Shown here piece after piece: positions 4,858 to 27,243 of a stretch of DNA of 27,559 bases. Position numbers and translations under genes: made by a program. Position 1 is the stretch's first letter, and each line of letters begins with the position of its first letter. The notes below the pieces were generated by a model. The model was not told the DNA's origin. It saw only the letters and a program-made list of their open reading frames with translations, and made no database searches. Origin of the DNA: a virus. Where the stretch lies: the IMG/VR virus record IMGVR_UViG_3300032116_001077, positions 1 to 27,559 of that record; one strand, given 5' to 3'.

Positions 4858-5214
4858 ATGAAAACTGATATTTTAAAGAAACTCATTAAAGAAGCAGTAA
4901 AAGAAGTATTTCAAGAAGAAATGAAAGACATTCTTTTAGAGGCAGTTCGTGGTAATAAACAATCAATAACTGAATCTGAAATGAAAACTTTTAGTTTCAA
5001 CACTAACTCTATTCCTCACCAGCAACCAAAACCTAATATTAATACTAAACAAGCATATATGGACATTTTAGGTGAAATGGCTCAAGGACCTAAATCAGGA
5101 TTTGATGGTGATTTTAAAGTAAATGGTCCAGTAAATACTATGTCTGAAGGAAGTTCTTTACCTGAAGGACAATTAGGTTTAGATCAAATAATGGGATTAA
5201 TGAAAGGTAGATAA
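4858..5214 (+). CDS. Small protein with a capsid-targeting-like N-terminus
   Basis: A 118-residue protein of unknown function. The N-terminus is a long amphipathic Lys/Glu helix with two candidate prohead-protease sites of the T4 type (L/I)-x-E: I10-K11-E12 before A13, and L26-L27-E28 before A29. The rest is Gly/Gln/Ser-rich and low in hydrophobic residues, so probably flexible, ending in LDQIMGLMKGR. It is the first gene after the promoter-like motif and overlaps the gp25 gene by one base. It may be an internal head protein placed in the baseplate operon, or a baseplate-associated protein whose helix only resembles the tag. The ATG at 4858 is the only start that keeps the helix. Confidence 0.6.
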   Translation: MKTDILKKLIKEAVKEVFQEEMKDILLEAVRGNKQSITESEMKTFSFNTNSIPHQQPKPNINTKQAYMDILGEMAQGPKSGFDGDFKVNGPVNTMSEGSSLPEGQLGLDQIMGLMKGR

Positions 5215-16290: not shown

Positions 16291-17307
16291 ATGGGAGCTT
16301 ACAAACAATTTTTAGCCTCAGACATAATTGTTACTCCATTTGAAGTTAACAAGACATTTACATTCCAAGGAATAAATGTAGGAGAAGCTTCTTCACCTAT
16401 AGCTCTTAATTACCCAGATGTAGGTATTGATAGACTTTTAGGAAGAAACATAACTGGTTCTTTATTTAACCTCAACTCAGATCCTACAACAGGACTATTA
16501 GGAGTTCAATATCAAAGATTAGTCTACAATTCAGTTTTAGAACTTTACTATTCAAACTACTTAAGTTCTAGCTATGGTGATCCAGTTAGTAGACCAATTC
16601 TAATTCCTGGATTTGACACTCAAGGAGATAGATTAGTAGGTTCATCTTCAAATCAAGCTTACGATAATTATCTTCAAACTACATTAACTTACCCAAAATA
16701 TTTTCCTACAGCATCTGATGCTCTTGTAGGAGTGATTTCTATTCCAGTCCGTTTATTTGGTGACTATATACAACCTAATTCATTTGTATTTTCAAGTACT
16801 ACAACTAGTGGAAGTTTAACAGATGATGGAGAAGGAAATATCTTGTATCAAGGAGATATAGTTGGAAATATATTTTATCCTCATGGTCTTATCATATTAA
16901 CTGGTAATAACTCAAGTTCATTTGGATCTGGTTCTGTATATGGTAGTGCAATTTATGGAACATCCGTTTACGGAGCCTCTACCTCATTCATTGATGAATT
17001 AGAAGCATTTATTACTTCTTCAAATGTAACTTGTTCTTTCTCTAGCTCATATACCATTTATGAATCTCAATATAAATGTACTATTAGAGAAAATGAATTT
17101 AATTTTACATTAAATCCAAGTGCCATCTCAGGAAGTACTGAAGGTACAGTTTATGGATTTGTAACTGAATCTTATTTCTCACCATATATTACTACAGTAG
17201 GTTTATATGATGAAGATCAAAACTTATTAGCTGTAGGAAAATTATCTCAACCGGTACCAACCTCACCAACAACAGATACAACAATATTGATAAACATAGA
17301 TAGATAA
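16291..17307 (+). CDS. Tail structural protein B, paralogue of the upstream gene in its C-terminus
   Basis: A 338-residue protein laid out like the gene before it. The N-terminus (MGAYKQFLASDIIVTPFEVN) differs, the middle is beta-rich, and a short YG repeat (VYGSAIYGTSVYGAS) sits at about 213-228. Residues about 264-338 (TIRENEFNFTLNPSAISGS, then TTVGLYDEDQNLLAVGKLSQ) align with the C-terminus of the upstream protein. Tandem duplication followed by divergence of the N-terminal two thirds fits proteins whose variable part faces outward, for instance receptor-contact proteins. An ATG at 16287 exists in another frame; 16291 is chosen because it is in frame. The stop overlaps the next ATG (TAATG). 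Confidence 0.6.
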   Translation: MGAYKQFLASDIIVTPFEVNKTFTFQGINVGEASSPIALNYPDVGIDRLLGRNITGSLFNLNSDPTTGLLGVQYQRLVYNSVLELYYSNYLSSSYGDPVSRPILIPGFDTQGDRLVGSSSNQAYDNYLQTTLTYPKYFPTASDALVGVISIPVRLFGDYIQPNSFVFSSTTTSGSLTDDGEGNILYQGDIVGNIFYPHGLIILTGNNSSSFGSGSVYGSAIYGTSVYGASTSFIDELEAFITSSNVTCSFSSSYTIYESQYKCTIRENEFNFTLNPSAISGSTEGTVYGFVTESYFSPYITTVGLYDEDQNLLAVGKLSQPVPTSPTTDTTILINIDR

Positions 17308-17747
17308 TGTGGTTATACGAAAATAAAGTTATAGAAAAGATAGAAGATTTCCCTGAAAATACATTTGGTTTTATTTACAAAATTACTAACAACGAAACTG
17401 GAAAGTTTTATATTGGTAAAAAACAACTTATATCTCAAACAAATATTAAACTAGGTAAAAAAGAATTAGCAGCCTTACCAACCCAGCGAGGCAAAAAACC
17501 TACTAAAAAATTAGTTACTAAAGAATCTAATTGGAAAGAATATTGGGGTAGTAATAAGTTCTTATTAGAAGATATAAAAAATTTAGGTTTAGATAAATTC
17601 CAACGAGAAATATTAGTTATATGTCCTAATAAAAAACTTTTAACATATTGGGAACTAGCACTACAGTGTAAGCATGATGTGTTGCAAGTAAATTGCTATA
17701 ATGATAACTTGTTAGGTAAGTTTTATAGAAAGGATTTTGAGGTCTAA
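17307..17747 (+). CDS. GIY-YIG-type endonuclease-like protein
   Basis: A 146-residue protein whose N-terminus has the GIY-YIG fold signature: FGFIYKITN (about 20-28) and, ten or so residues on, FYIGKKQL. A basic insert (about 50-72), then NWKEYWGSN and a later Glu in TYWELALQ (the usual catalytic-metal Glu position) complete the pattern. Proteins like this occur in T4-like phages, some as free-standing homing endonucleases of the Seg type. This one starts on the stop of a tail gene (TAATG), which suggests stable integration into the operon rather than a recent insertion. No SD and no own promoter motif. Whether it is an active nuclease cannot be judged. Confidence 0.65.
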   Translation: MWLYENKVIEKIEDFPENTFGFIYKITNNETGKFYIGKKQLISQTNIKLGKKELAALPTQRGKKPTKKLVTKESNWKEYWGSNKFLLEDIKNLGLDKFQREILVICPNKKLLTYWELALQCKHDVLQVNCYNDNLLGKFYRKDFEV

Positions 17748-19570: not shown

Positions 19571-20371
19571 ATGGTAAAACTTATAGACCTATTATTAGAA
19601 GCAACTCAAAAACCTAAAGCCATCATAATGGCTGGAGGAGCTTCAGTAGGTAAATCAACAGTACTAAATCAAATTCAATCTTCATTAAAAGGATTTGAAA
19701 ATTTAAATGCTGACAAATATGTAGAAGATAAGGACTCACCAATGTATGGTAACTTATCAGCTGCTTCTTCTCAAATCAGAAAAAAAGACTTACCTAGTGC
19801 TATCAATAATAAGAAAAATCTTATTTATGATACCACAGCATCTAACTTAAGTACATTACAGCCTATATTAGATGAATTAAAAGACGCAGGGTATGATGTA
19901 ATGATGATCATGGTATACGCTCATCCAATTGTTTCATTCTTAAGAAACTATAAACGTGAACGTAAAGTCCCAGCAGTTGGTGTTTTAGGTACTTGGGCTA
20001 ATGTTTATAATTTAATTGGAGAATATAAAAAAATATTTGGAAATAACTTTATATTAGTTAGTTCACCTGCTTCCACACCTGAAGAATTTAAGGAAATTGA
20101 AAATTTCCAAAACGCATATGATAATGGAAAGTTAAAAGAATACTTTGACAATTTATTATCCACAGGCGAATTTAAATCTACATTTAAAAAATCTGATGTA
20201 GGTTTATCTCCTGAAGAATTAGCTAAAAGAGAAAAACAAAGGGAAGCTACTCGTAAAACTTTAGAAAAAAATATTGATAAAATAGCTGACACTTACGATC
20301 AAATTCAAACCCAATTAGAACCAACCAATATTAAAGAATTACCTAATAAGGTTAACTCATTTATTAGATGA
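19571..20371 (+). CDS. P-loop kinase of zeta-toxin type with a capsid-targeting-like N-terminus
   Basis: A 266-residue P-loop kinase. The Walker A motif is GGASVGKST (residues 22-30); NADKYVE (about 47-53) and YDTTASN (about 80-86) sit where zeta toxins and related small-molecule kinases bind their substrate, and an Arg-rich RNYKRERKVP (about 115-124) fits the lid. Zeta toxins phosphorylate UDP-N-acetylglucosamine; here the substrate is unknown. The N-terminus, MVKLIDLLLE before A11, places L8-L9-E10 exactly like the ten-residue T4 internal-protein tag, and the kinase fold starts right after it. The C-terminal 60 residues are a charged helix. It is the first gene after promoter motif copy 3 and overlaps the next gene by four bases (ATGA). 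Confidence 0.75.
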   Translation: MVKLIDLLLEATQKPKAIIMAGGASVGKSTVLNQIQSSLKGFENLNADKYVEDKDSPMYGNLSAASSQIRKKDLPSAINNKKNLIYDTTASNLSTLQPILDELKDAGYDVMMIMVYAHPIVSFLRNYKRERKVPAVGVLGTWANVYNLIGEYKKIFGNNFILVSSPASTPEEFKEIENFQNAYDNGKLKEYFDNLLSTGEFKSTFKKSDVGLSPEELAKREKQREATRKTLEKNIDKIADTYDQIQTQLEPTNIKELPNKVNSFIR

Positions 20372-21309
20372 ACTCATTAGTCAAAGAACTTATACAACCC
20401 TTATTAGAAGCCACAACTCAAACAGTAGCTTTATATCCAGGTAAATTCAAACCACCTCATAGGGGACATTTTGCTGTAGTCCAACAATTATTAGATAAAG
20501 CTGATAAAGTAATTATAGTTATCTCACCTATCACAGTAGATGGTATAACAGCTCAACAAAGTGAAGCAGTTTGGAATTTATACAAAACTCTACTTGGCGA
20601 TAAAATAGATATTAAAGTAGTAGATAAATCTCCAGTTAAATATGTTTTAGATACTGTAAAAGAAAATCCTGAGGATAATTTTATGGTGGCTTATGGTAAA
20701 GGAGAAGAAGAAAGATATAAATCACTTGTTGGTAAACCTAATGTTCAAATAATTGATGGTGGTACTATAAGTGATAAAGAAGGCAACTTAAACGCTACTG
20801 ACTTTAGAAATGCTCTCCAAACAAACCAAGATATTTCTAGATTCTTACCAGATGGAATAGATTATCAAGATTTTCTTAAAGCAGTAACAAGTGGAACTCT
20901 TGAAGAAAATTGTGGTTGTCAACACTCTCAACCTACAGATTTTAAAAATGCATTAGCATTGTTAACTAAATATATGCTTGATCAAGGTATGAATATTACA
21001 CCTTTACCTAAATTAAGAATAATAAACAATGATGTAAAAAACGCTAAAAATATTTTAGGTAGAACTGCGTATTATGATCCTAATGATTGTTCAATAACTT
21101 TATATACTTTAAATCGCCATCCAAAAGATGTATTACGTTCATATACTCATGAAATGATTCATCGTATTCAAGATAATGAAGGTAGATTAGGAAATGTAAA
21201 TACTACTAACACTAATGAGGATGGTGATTTAGATCAATTGGAACGTGAAGCATATGAACATGGAAATATGACTTTTAGAAACTGGGAAGACTCAATTAAA
21301 AATGTATAA
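20368..21309 (+). CDS. Nucleotidyltransferase (NMNAT-like) fused to an HExxH metallopeptidase-like domain
   Basis: A 313-residue two-domain protein. Residues about 17-165 form a cytidylyltransferase-like fold: LYPGKFKPPHRGHF (with the HxGH-type motif RGH at 32-34), a VIIVISP strand, and NATDFRNAL (about 142-150) in place of the usual ISxTxxR. Such enzymes make NAD or nucleotide-activated sugars and lipids. Residues about 185-313 look like a zinc metallopeptidase: HEMIH (261-265) with E262 as base, and E294 in LEREAYEHGN as likely third ligand. The N-terminus carries L12-L13-E14 before A15, like a capsid-targeting tag. Between the domains, TLEE then NCGC (178-184) offers a second (L/I)-x-E site, so proteolysis could separate them. 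It overlaps both neighbours. Confidence 0.72.
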   Translation: MNSLVKELIQPLLEATTQTVALYPGKFKPPHRGHFAVVQQLLDKADKVIIVISPITVDGITAQQSEAVWNLYKTLLGDKIDIKVVDKSPVKYVLDTVKENPEDNFMVAYGKGEEERYKSLVGKPNVQIIDGGTISDKEGNLNATDFRNALQTNQDISRFLPDGIDYQDFLKAVTSGTLEENCGCQHSQPTDFKNALALLTKYMLDQGMNITPLPKLRIINNDVKNAKNILGRTAYYDPNDCSITLYTLNRHPKDVLRSYTHEMIHRIQDNEGRLGNVNTTNTNEDGDLDQLEREAYEHGNMTFRNWEDSIKNV

Positions 21310-21832
21310 ACTTACAGACTTATATAAACAACTTAAAGAAGAAGAACAAGCAACTCAAGTATCACAATATAAAATATTTTGTGATATGGATGGTGTGTTA
21401 TGTGACTTTGATAGACGTTTTGAACAATTTGGAGGTATGAAACCTAAAGAATATGAATCTAGGTTTGGTACTAAAAAGTTTTGGGAAATTATAGATAAAG
21501 TAGGAGCCCAATATTGGGCTAAAATGCCTTGGATGCCAGATGGTAAAGAATTATGGAACTATATTAGTAAATATAAACCAGCTTTACTCTCAGCACCATC
21601 TATGGATCCCTCATCTCGTTATGGAAAACATTTATGGGTGAATGAAAATCTACCAGGAACTAAACTAATTTTAGCGAGACGAGAAAAGAAAAGAAATTAT
21701 TCTGGTAAGAATAAAATACTTATTGACGACCGCCCTGATAACATTGAAGAATGGGTTTATGAGGGCGGTATTGGTATTTTACATACATCAGCTCAACAAA
21801 CAATTAAAGATTTACAAGAACTAGGACTATGA
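21302..21832 (+). CDS. HAD-family 5'(3')-deoxyribonucleotidase-like enzyme with a tag-like N-terminus
   Basis: A 176-residue HAD phosphatase of the NT5C type, likely removing phosphate from (deoxy)nucleoside monophosphates. Motif I is FCDMDGVLCDF (D28 nucleophile, D30 acid/base), motif II the Ser in LLSAPS (about 95-100), a Lys in LARREKKRNY (about 124-133) for motif III, and motif IV LIDDRPDN (D142, D143). The catalytic set is complete. In front of the fold stand about 20 extra residues, with L11-K12-E13 before E14, a possible prohead-protease site as in its neighbours. The ATG lies inside the previous gene (8-base overlap), and the end overlaps the next gene by four bases, so it is tightly coupled. 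Confidence 0.8.
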   Translation: MYKLTDLYKQLKEEEQATQVSQYKIFCDMDGVLCDFDRRFEQFGGMKPKEYESRFGTKKFWEIIDKVGAQYWAKMPWMPDGKELWNYISKYKPALLSAPSMDPSSRYGKHLWVNENLPGTKLILARREKKRNYSGKNKILIDDRPDNIEEWVYEGGIGILHTSAQQTIKDLQELGL

Positions 21833-22488
21833 GTAAATTTAAATATAAATTAGTAGAACAAGATGAACCTCAAGGAGGTGGAGAAGAAAGTGGATTAAAA
21901 GGTATTAAGGTAGAACAAGAATTAACCTTAACTACTATGAATGATCTAACTTCTGAAAAAGTTCTTGCTATTTTAAAAGATCCTAAGTATCTTGGAGGTG
22001 TTTACACAGCTAAATCTAAAGAGTTATTAGATTTTGAGAAAAAGGTATTTGGTGATAAACCAACTAATCCTACTCAAGCTAAAAACAATAAAAAGATTTA
22101 TGATGAAAATGGCGTTAAATTATATAAAGAAATAGAAACTGCTACTGGTAAAACATTTGAAAGAGGTAAGGATAAATTTGTCTCTAAAAAAGATAATGAC
22201 GGAAAAGAAATGTTTGTTTTTCCTATCAAATCTCCTAAAAACTTGTCTTTAGTACAAGACTATTTAAAAGAAAAAACTAAAACTCAAATTAAACCTAAAG
22301 TAGTTGATGCTAACACTTTAAAATTCCCATCATCAGATAAATCAGATTTAGAAAAGATTTTGAAAAATGCTGAAGATGCTAAAGTTATATCAAGTAAAGA
22401 TTATACATTAGAAAAAACTGATAAACTTGATGAAAATACAATTCGTCAAGCTATTAAAGAACAATTCTCTAAAATATTCAATAAATAA
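21829..22488 (+). CDS. Lys/Glu-rich protein with a tag-like N-terminus, unknown function
   Basis: A 219-residue, highly charged protein that I do not recognise. It begins MSKFKYKLVE before Q11, with L8-V9-E10 as a possible (L/I)-x-E cleavage site, followed by a Gly/Glu-rich loop. There are three Lys-rich middle segments with small beta-like stretches (KEMFVFPIKSPKNLSLVQDY). The C-terminus has an amphipathic helix, ENTIRQAIKEQFSKIFNK. No Cys, signal peptide or membrane segment. It may be a DNA-binding internal protein, in keeping with its charge and tag, but that is inference. It ends five bases before the zinc-finger gene. Confidence 0.55.
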   Translation: MSKFKYKLVEQDEPQGGGEESGLKGIKVEQELTLTTMNDLTSEKVLAILKDPKYLGGVYTAKSKELLDFEKKVFGDKPTNPTQAKNNKKIYDENGVKLYKEIETATGKTFERGKDKFVSKKDNDGKEMFVFPIKSPKNLSLVQDYLKEKTKTQIKPKVVDANTLKFPSSDKSDLEKILKNAEDAKVISSKDYTLEKTDKLDENTIRQAIKEQFSKIFNK

Positions 22489-23725: not shown

Positions 23726-24142
23726 ATGAATAATCAATTCACCCATATGCAAAAGTTGGCTTTTGGTAAGCCTCTTACAACTACAGAATCAATTCATGAG
23801 TCTACTCTTAAAGAAAAAATTAAAGAGTTAGTCCATGCTTCTTTAGATGAAGCTAAGAAAAAGAAAAAAGAACCAGAAGATGTAGCTCCTCAAGAAGACG
23901 TAGACATTGATCTTAATATGGAAGAACCACCTGCTGAACCTACTACTGAACCTACAGATACTATGACTCCAACTGATGGAGGCATGGATATTGACCCAAC
24001 TGTTAAATCAATTCAAGATTCATTACAAAAAGCTTATGCCTCTGCTAAGCAGTTAGGTGATGAAAAATTAATGAATCAGATTGGTAATACTATCACTATG
24101 CTTGTTAGAACACAAGTATTAGGTGGTCAGGCTTCTGAATAA
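23726..24142 (+). CDS. Acidic Pro-rich protein, possible internal head or scaffold-like protein
   Basis: A 138-residue protein. The ATG at 23726 is preferred over an in-frame GTG three codons upstream, because it leaves the same 18-base leader as promoter copy 2. Residues about 20-45 form an amphipathic helix with several (L/I)-x-E sites (I23-H24-E25, L28-K29-E30, I32-K33-E34, L40-D41-E42 before A43), followed by KKKKK. The middle is acidic and Pro/Thr-rich and probably disordered, and the end is helical (YASAKQLGDEKLMNQIGNTI). Small acidic proteins with repeated prohead-protease sites recall core proteins of T4 heads such as gp67 and gp68, but no direct homology is claimed. TAATG overlap with the next gene. 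Confidence 0.55.
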   Translation: MNNQFTHMQKLAFGKPLTTTESIHESTLKEKIKELVHASLDEAKKKKKEPEDVAPQEDVDIDLNMEEPPAEPTTEPTDTMTPTDGGMDIDPTVKSIQDSLQKAYASAKQLGDEKLMNQIGNTITMLVRTQVLGGQASE

Positions 24143-26355: not shown

Positions 26356-27243
26356 ATGGAACAAGCTAGTCTCATAAAACGTTTAATACAAGAAGCACTT
26401 TCTACACCTCCTAAAAAAGAATCATGCAACTGCGGTTGCCATTCTTGTGAGAATGTAGGCAATCCAGGTCCTGTACTTAACGAAAGTCTTAACACTAAAG
26501 TTGTTATGACTGAGAATATGAAATACCATGTTGAGAATAAATTGCCTATCACTGAAAATATGTTTAGATATGGATCTGAAGCATTTTTAGACATGTGGGC
26601 TGAAGCACGTTACTTGTTTTCTCGTAATGCAATTCATGTAAATGATTTTGATAAAGAAATTTTACTTGAAACTAATTTAGGTGAATATGGAATGTATGAA
26701 GGACAAAAAGTACCTTTAGATTTACCTATGTTAGAAGAAGTAGACAAACCTATACTTCCATATAGTGATTTATTAGATCAAATTAAAGCAGACTCAGAAT
26801 TAGCTAAAATGAATTCTGGGAAATTAATGGATCTTTATTTTGAACTAGAACAATCTATTTTTGATGGAAATCTTGATAACGTATCTCGTTTATTAAGAAA
26901 TTATGGAGTATATAATAAATATATTTCAATTCTTCAAAAGAGACTTAATGAAGATGACAAAAAGAAAACACCTGCTTTAAATAAACCTAAACGTGGTGGT
27001 TCTAAGAAATTTTACGTATATGTACGTGACCCAAAATCAAAACGTATTAAAAAAGTAAGCTTTGGAATGGCTGGTGGAGGATTAAGAGCAAAACTTAACA
27101 ATCCTAAAGCACGCCAAGCTTTCTCTAAACGTCATAACTGCCCTCAAAAGAAAGACAAAACTAAAGCATCATACTGGAGTTGTAGATTGCCCCGTATGGC
27201 TAAGCTACTAGGGTTCAAAACCACTTACACAGGGTATTGGTAA
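26356..27243 (+). CDS. Late protein with tag-like N-terminus, Cys cluster and a conserved basic C-terminal domain
   Basis: A 295-residue protein. The N-terminus MEQASLIKRLIQE before A14 offers I11-Q12-E13 as a capsid-type cleavage site. A Cys cluster follows, CNCGCHSC (C24, C26, C28, C31, H29), which could bind zinc or another metal. The middle (about 50-200) is helical and acidic. The C-terminal domain (about 215-295) is basic: KFYVYVRDPKSKRIKKVSFG, then NNPKARQAFSKRHNC and SYWSCRLPRMAKLLG. I recognise this block from many marine T4-like phages; its function is unknown to me, but its charge suits DNA contact in the head. The ATG at 26356 is the only start that keeps the tag; the next Met is near residue 50. 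Confidence 0.62.
   Translation: MEQASLIKRLIQEALSTPPKKESCNCGCHSCENVGNPGPVLNESLNTKVVMTENMKYHVENKLPITENMFRYGSEAFLDMWAEARYLFSRNAIHVNDFDKEILLETNLGEYGMYEGQKVPLDLPMLEEVDKPILPYSDLLDQIKADSELAKMNSGKLMDLYFELEQSIFDGNLDNVSRLLRNYGVYNKYISILQKRLNEDDKKKTPALNKPKRGGSKKFYVYVRDPKSKRIKKVSFGMAGGGLRAKLNNPKARQAFSKRHNCPQKKDKTKASYWSCRLPRMAKLLGFKTTYTGYW

Follow-up and report, generated by a model that had tools for sequence, protein, structure and literature searches.

Alt of bacteriophage T4 is the classic injected ADP-ribosyltransferase. Alt, the internal proteins IPI, IPII and IPIII, and gp24 of this phage carry a capsid-targeting sequence (CTS) that is cleaved by the gp21 protease, namely an N-terminal peptide of 10–20 residues with hydrophobic positions 4, 7 and 8, Glu at position 10 and an (L/I)xE motif. 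In IPIII, 10 residues are sufficient for targeting, positions 4 and 7 governing targeting and positions 8 and 10 governing processing (PMC9026906). The ejection proteins of phages SPN3US and phiKZ are likewise processed after Glu by a prohead protease and delivered with the DNA, but their propeptides mostly exceed 100 residues, carry the motif A-x-E or S-x-E and are not short CTS (PMC5694885). Polyvalent proteins, which belong to phages and conjugative elements, combine several effector domains in one long polypeptide and include predicted co-injected Zeta-like kinases, zinc peptidases, nucleotidyltransferases and ADP-ribosyltransferases (ARTs); injection is predicted for the ART-PolyVal class, and a role as injected effectors has been suggested for Zeta-like kinases (Iyer et al. 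2017, PMC5512222). Here we analyse the IMG/VR virus record IMGVR_UViG_3300032116_001077 (27,559 nucleotides, the window), in which four consecutive genes (positions 19571–22488) encode proteins with N-termini resembling the T4 CTS. We propose, with a probability of about 0.82, that the N-terminal peptides of three enzymes, and less surely that of a fourth, Lys-rich protein, are T4-type capsid-targeting propeptides, and that the enzymes are packed in the phage head and delivered with the DNA.

The window derives from an uncultured T4-like phage whose nearest annotated relative is Flavobacterium phage vB_FspM_immuto (NC_055915). Its peptides share with the T4 CTS the length, the hydrophobic positions, the (L/I)xE ending and the occurrence on otherwise unrelated proteins, and in both cases the genome also encodes a protease of the gp21 family. 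They differ in sequence (MIKLxDLLxE in the commonest form) and, for the nucleotidyltransferase and the nucleotidase, in their greater length, with Glu at positions 14 and 13. The cargo differs as well: three small basic proteins plus Alt in T4, and here kinases, nucleotidyltransferase-peptidases, nucleotidases and dozens of other proteins. Unlike the polyvalent proteins, each of the window proteins consists of one or two domains, and most proteins of this set are separate, small and equipped with their own removable tag; larger fusions occur only in relatives, such as immuto gp88. The window phage would use a version of T4 capsid targeting in which the range of enzymes carried is much broader.

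N-terminal peptides of the four proteins

The four genes comprise the following features (arrows mark predicted cleavage):

19571–19600 (+): kinase tag MVKLIDLLLE↓A (L8-L9-E10), predicted cleavage after E10; 83/83 homologues tagged
19601–20371 (+): kinase body, Zeta-toxin/polynucleotide-kinase-like P-loop kinase (PF06414; Foldseek)
20368–20409 (+): nucleotidyltransferase-peptidase tag MNSLVKELIQPLLE↓A (L12-L13-E14), predicted cleavage after E14; 60/69 homologues tagged
20410–21309 (+): HxGH nucleotidyltransferase (NMNAT/PPAT-like) followed by a HEMIH zinc-peptidase-like domain (PF01467; Foldseek)
21302–21340 (+): NT5C (nucleotidase) tag MYKLTDLYKQLKE↓E (L11-K12-E13), predicted cleavage after E13; 68/70 homologues tagged
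21341–21832 (+): HAD 5'(3')-deoxyribonucleotidase-like body (phrog_2643, E 7.6e-27)
21829–21858 (+): N-terminus of the Lys-rich protein, MSKFKYKLVE↓Q (L8-V9-E10), a weak candidate tag; similar start in its few homologues
21859–22488 (+): body of the Lys-rich protein, of no known family (0 Pfam and 0 PHROG matches)

When the residues were re-read from the translations, the (L/I)xE motif stood in all four peptides where the initial annotation had placed it. That annotation had also described four enzyme-cassette proteins, each with its peptide directly before a recognisable fold. This description fits the kinase, the nucleotidyltransferase-peptidase and the nucleotidase, with 10–14 residues before the fold (the Zeta_toxin/P-loop match starts at residue 12, CTP_transf_like at residue 22 and the first NT5C strand at residues 22–23), and does not fit the Lys-rich protein, which has no recognisable fold.

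The kinase matched the P-loop kinase domain Zeta_toxin (PF06414) with an E value of 9.5e-16 and a score of 58.3 bits (cut-off 22.3), and the profile of its homologues matched Zeta toxin 1gvn starting at column 11. Residues G27 and K28 of the P-loop, D48, D87, R129 and R131 are invariant in the family. Zeta toxin and polynucleotide kinases were the best Foldseek matches, and the fold resembles both; an RNA-repair reading (kinase, HAD phosphatase and nucleotidyltransferase, compare T4 Pnkp) was considered beside a Zeta-like activity such as UDP-GlcNAc phosphorylation, neither being favoured. The tag is present in every homologue with a readable start, at identities down to approximately 30%. Its conservation is position-specific: among the 83 sequences, L4 occurs in 77, L/I7 and L/I8 in all, and position 10 is Glu in 79 and Asp in 4, while positions 5, 6, 9 and 11–13 are variable. 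In length and layout the tag equals the peptides of IPII/IPIII (MKTYQEFIAE↓A) and gp24 (MAKINELLRE↓S) in the T4 record. AlphaFold modelled it as a low-confidence helix (mean predicted local distance difference test score, pLDDT, 52) ahead of a body mostly scoring 84–97.

In the nucleotidyltransferase-peptidase, the match to PF01467 (cytidylyltransferase-like) lay only just above the cut-off. The HxGH adenylyltransferase fold is present, in the form GKFKPPHRGH, the first His being replaced by Thr in many relatives; in the peptidase-like domain that follows, H261, E262 and H265 are invariant. Foldseek returned NMNAT, NadD and PPAT. Assignment as a proven NMNAT, and hence as an NAD-restoring counter-defence enzyme, was not adopted, as NMNAT and PPAT structures scored alike and the fold fails to separate them. 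The AlphaFold model places the tag in a helix at residues 3–12 (pLDDT 56–65) that ends in a break, the score falling below 50 at residues 12–14.

For the nucleotidase, a phmmer search against the PDB gave no match. Its homologues carry different tags (MYKLTDLYKQLKEEE, MIKLTDLLKEVEEQ, MKKSLIDLLEAYPIPE, MKKTPTLLDLYEAI and MGNLADLLLEES), yet all of these precede the same first strand. The initial annotation had proposed looking for tagless relatives that start directly at the fold, and such relatives exist: the two remaining nucleotidases with a scorable N-terminus (L094 and L160) start at the strand, nine nucleotidyltransferases begin at their fold, and alignments with solved bacterial adenylyltransferases run from residue 2 of the latter to just past the tag. 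Separately, in Pelagibacter phage HTVC008M (L222), gp129 and gp134, homologues of the kinase and nucleotidase, have short N-terminal segments ending in LKE and VQE.

Head genes and prohead protease of the same phage

The window record stops short of the head genes and itself contains no prohead protease. The protease that the initial annotation had expected outside the window was found in the overlapping contig G001, which shares 16,585 bases with the window with 2 mismatches and also has the genes for TerL, portal, scaffold and capsid protein. The protease belongs to Peptidase_S77, the T4 gp21 family (E 9.9e-29), and an S77 alignment that included T4 gp21 showed H74, S127 and D153 to be invariant. 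Moreover, the protease (MKSLLVE↓T) and the capsid protein (MSSINQLLE↓S) begin with similar N-terminal peptides, as does T4 gp21, and the scaffold of these phages also has a similar N-terminal (L/I)xE peptide.

The cultured phage immuto has the same gene order: primase, exonuclease and a small-gene block, then terminase, portal, protease, scaffold and capsid protein. It shares with the window phage this syntenic block, a tagged nucleotidase (MKKVMGNLADLLLE↓E) and an S77-type protease, and differs in that no kinase was found at the corresponding place. An S77 protease was encoded in 13 of 18 long contigs found by their tags vs 2 of 9 control contigs, a small sample with many fragments in which both S77-positive controls are T4-size genomes. 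In G001, the large terminase gene (33787–35358, reverse complement) contains one in-frame stop codon, which may be an error or real.

Enrichment beside head genes and occurrence on unrelated proteins

An (L/I)xE motif with its Glu at residues 7–20 was present in 16–21% of composition-shuffled N-termini. Four chance motifs in succession would have a probability of roughly 0.2^4 = 0.002, and with about 20% of shuffled N-termini positive the motif alone was rejected as evidence. For these candidate tags the main support is comparative, consisting of the near-universal conservation among homologues of the three enzymes, described above, and of an enrichment beside head genes. The latter was assessed in immuto and four IMG/VR contigs of 155–166 kb, the head-proximal block being taken from the exonuclease to the capsid gene. 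The motif occurred in 88 of 152 proteins of the block (58%; 32 expected by shuffling) and in 188 of 879 elsewhere in the five genomes (21%; 143 expected), and was thus 2.7-fold commoner in the block. The Fisher odds ratio was 5.05 (p 9e-19), and a stricter form of the motif gave 62/152 against 86/879 (p 5e-19); these p values are no more than indicative, as genes were called by a simple script and homologues shared among the five genomes do not count as independent observations.

The tag also recurs on unrelated proteins. In the fetched loci, a strict form of the tag starts 32 unrelated bodies, at least one of which (L080) is probably a chance match; MQKLAGI matches in the first tag scan proved to be internal Met starts and were handled as a separate class. 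A scan of IMG/VR for DNA encoding MIKLxDLLxE returned at least 120 stretches, not a random sample, in which the peptide starts at least 117 distinct proteins of at least 45 residues, falling into at least 61 unrelated body clusters. Among the matches listed, 111 of 127 open such a reading frame and are preceded by an in-frame stop no more than 20 codons away, as expected of real starts. Complete scans with control patterns gave 16 stretches (2 such starts) for a scrambled and 22 (8 such starts) for a charge-swapped version.

Most tagged bodies had no match in a Pfam search. Those with a match include an ART-PolyVal ADP-ribosyltransferase (PF18760, E 2.1e-10; L243:4514–4897, +), for which T4 Alt is a functional parallel, and an Acb1-like 2H phosphodiesterase with HTT and HLT motifs (PF23474, E 1.9e-7, above cut-off; L182:6662–7207, +), possibly a head-packaged enzyme directed against the cyclic-oligonucleotide-based antiphage signalling system (CBASS). 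Others are an Fe/Mn superoxide dismutase in a phage contig (L010:19444–20142, +), a GNAT protein (L205), a nucleotidyltransferase (L064) and a phage lysozyme (L311); in L251, three tagged genes adjoin one another. The initial annotation had spoken of an unusual effector set, which is fair but understated, since dozens of further proteins bear this kind of tag. One more such protein lies in the window:

26356–26394 (+): MEQASLIKRLIQE↓A, another candidate tag, carried by an unrelated protein; related proteins share the tag type, for example MERIKQLIREVLSTPPKKES

Proposed mechanism and alternative explanations

We infer a route in which the amphipathic tag helix, hydrophobic at about positions 4, 7 and 8, would bind the prohead core and thereby incorporate the enzyme into the prohead. 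The S77 protease would cut after the Glu of (L/I)-x-E and release the mature enzyme, which would remain in the head with the DNA, enter the next host with it and act there. Peptide length, position-specific conservation, removability, the unrelated bodies, the head-gene enrichment and the gp21-family protease all agree with the T4-like reading first put forward in the initial annotation.

Beside the sampling limits already given for the S77 comparison and the IMG/VR scan, several points weigh against this route. The likely cleavage site of the capsid protein is LVVE↓S or IVSE↓A, which makes the exact specificity of the protease uncertain, and Glu-rich helices arise easily by chance. The nine tagless nucleotidyltransferases sit mostly in contigs with a tagged kinase or nucleotidase, showing that not every homologue of this enzyme would be cargo by the tag route. 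A search for published virion proteomics of Flavobacterium phage or pelagiphage relatives found nothing usable; the "proteomic tree" of PMC5332604 was rejected as virion proteomics, being a genome comparison. The Lys-rich protein is a weak case. Its peptide fits poorly, with Lys at position 7 placing it outside the main tag class and a pattern that is alternating and not helical; it has few homologues, in which a start like [FY]K[YF][KR]L..E is retained.

A different fate inside the prohead is conceivable but unlikely: the tagged proteins might enter the core only as assembly helpers and be degraded or lost at maturation, as T4 gp22, gp67 and gp68 largely are, without being delivered. The similar (L/I)xE peptides on scaffold, protease and capsid protein suit this explanation, since the motif alone would then mark core proteins generally, and in T4 the core proteins end up as cleavage fragments (PMC9026906). 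However, the bodies behind the tags are globular, mutually unrelated enzymes whose catalytic residues are conserved, which suits cargo better than scaffold, and the T4 proteins that carry such tags on folded bodies (the internal proteins and Alt) are delivered.

Still less probable is that the N-terminal helix serves attachment to a membrane or replication complex, or oligomerisation, with (L/I)xE incidental. A short amphipathic helix could have such roles, and 13 of 27 strict tag matches lie far from head genes. Against this stand the Glu kept exactly at position 10 with free positions between, the likeness between the tag and the starts of the protease and capsid protein encoded by the phage itself, the head-block enrichment and the association with S77 proteases. 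That the peptides are ordinary extensions inherited with each enzyme family and bearing a chance motif is hardly credible: although about one fifth of shuffled N-termini contain (L/I)xE, one peptide occurs on dozens of unrelated bodies, different peptides occur on the NT5C body, and tagless relatives exist.

Second peptide class and fusion proteins

A second class of N-terminal peptide is encoded downstream of the four genes:

23726–23788 (+): second N-terminal peptide class MNNQFTHMQKLAFGKPLTTTE, similar to the motif FxR(M/W)QxLAGI at the scaffold C-terminus and to N-terminal sequences on unrelated proteins

This motif ends the scaffold protein in G001, G002, G004, G005, G006 and immuto, and reappears close to the start of unrelated proteins, where (I/L)TE often comes after it. 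It may be a second core-binding peptide. Furthermore, the junctions of fusion proteins often retain a tag-like stretch: L131 has GLVKELILPLFELESKKTV ahead of a transferase, and peptidase-nucleotidase fusions have LKQIYE↓VE. In immuto gp88, a 907-residue fusion of nucleotidyltransferase-like, NMNAT-like and peptidase-like regions, the domain junction reads TLAE↓ALDDGSE. These few, related cases suggest that fused proteins could be processed into separate enzymes in the prohead.

A broader proposition, on which we are evenly divided, is that environmental T4-like phages use an import code readable from sequence. In it, MIKLxDLLxE and a second peptide, R(M/W)QxLAGI...TE, which copies the scaffold C-terminus, would load dozens of unrelated enzymes into the head, including counter-defence-type enzymes (the Acb1-like phosphodiesterase and the ADP-ribosyltransferase), some cargo being fusions with protease-like junction sites. 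The T4 internal proteins have so far been a small special case; with a recognisable tag shared by many uncultured phages, effectors delivered by the virion could be recognised from sequence, and unannotated "hypothetical" proteins could be tested as first-wave effectors directed at bacterial defence and metabolism. The tags would also provide new targeting peptides for loading proteins into phage heads.

Other N-terminal peptides and neighbouring genes

A recurring N-terminal peptide of the form MENFDLKKFLVENKLTxNSKxLKE was seen on different proteins, among them immuto gp76, gp77 and gp92 and a protein at 142247 in G005. Within the window, the protein encoded at 17307–17747 is homologous to immuto gp100 (L003 836–1273), which is annotated "NAD synthetase". 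The window protein has YKITNNETGKFYIGKKQ, which looks like a GIY-YIG nuclease, and the annotation may be wrong. At 4858–5214, among the tail genes, a small protein starts with MKTDILKKLIKEAVKEVF and contains ILLEAV, both tag-like stretches.

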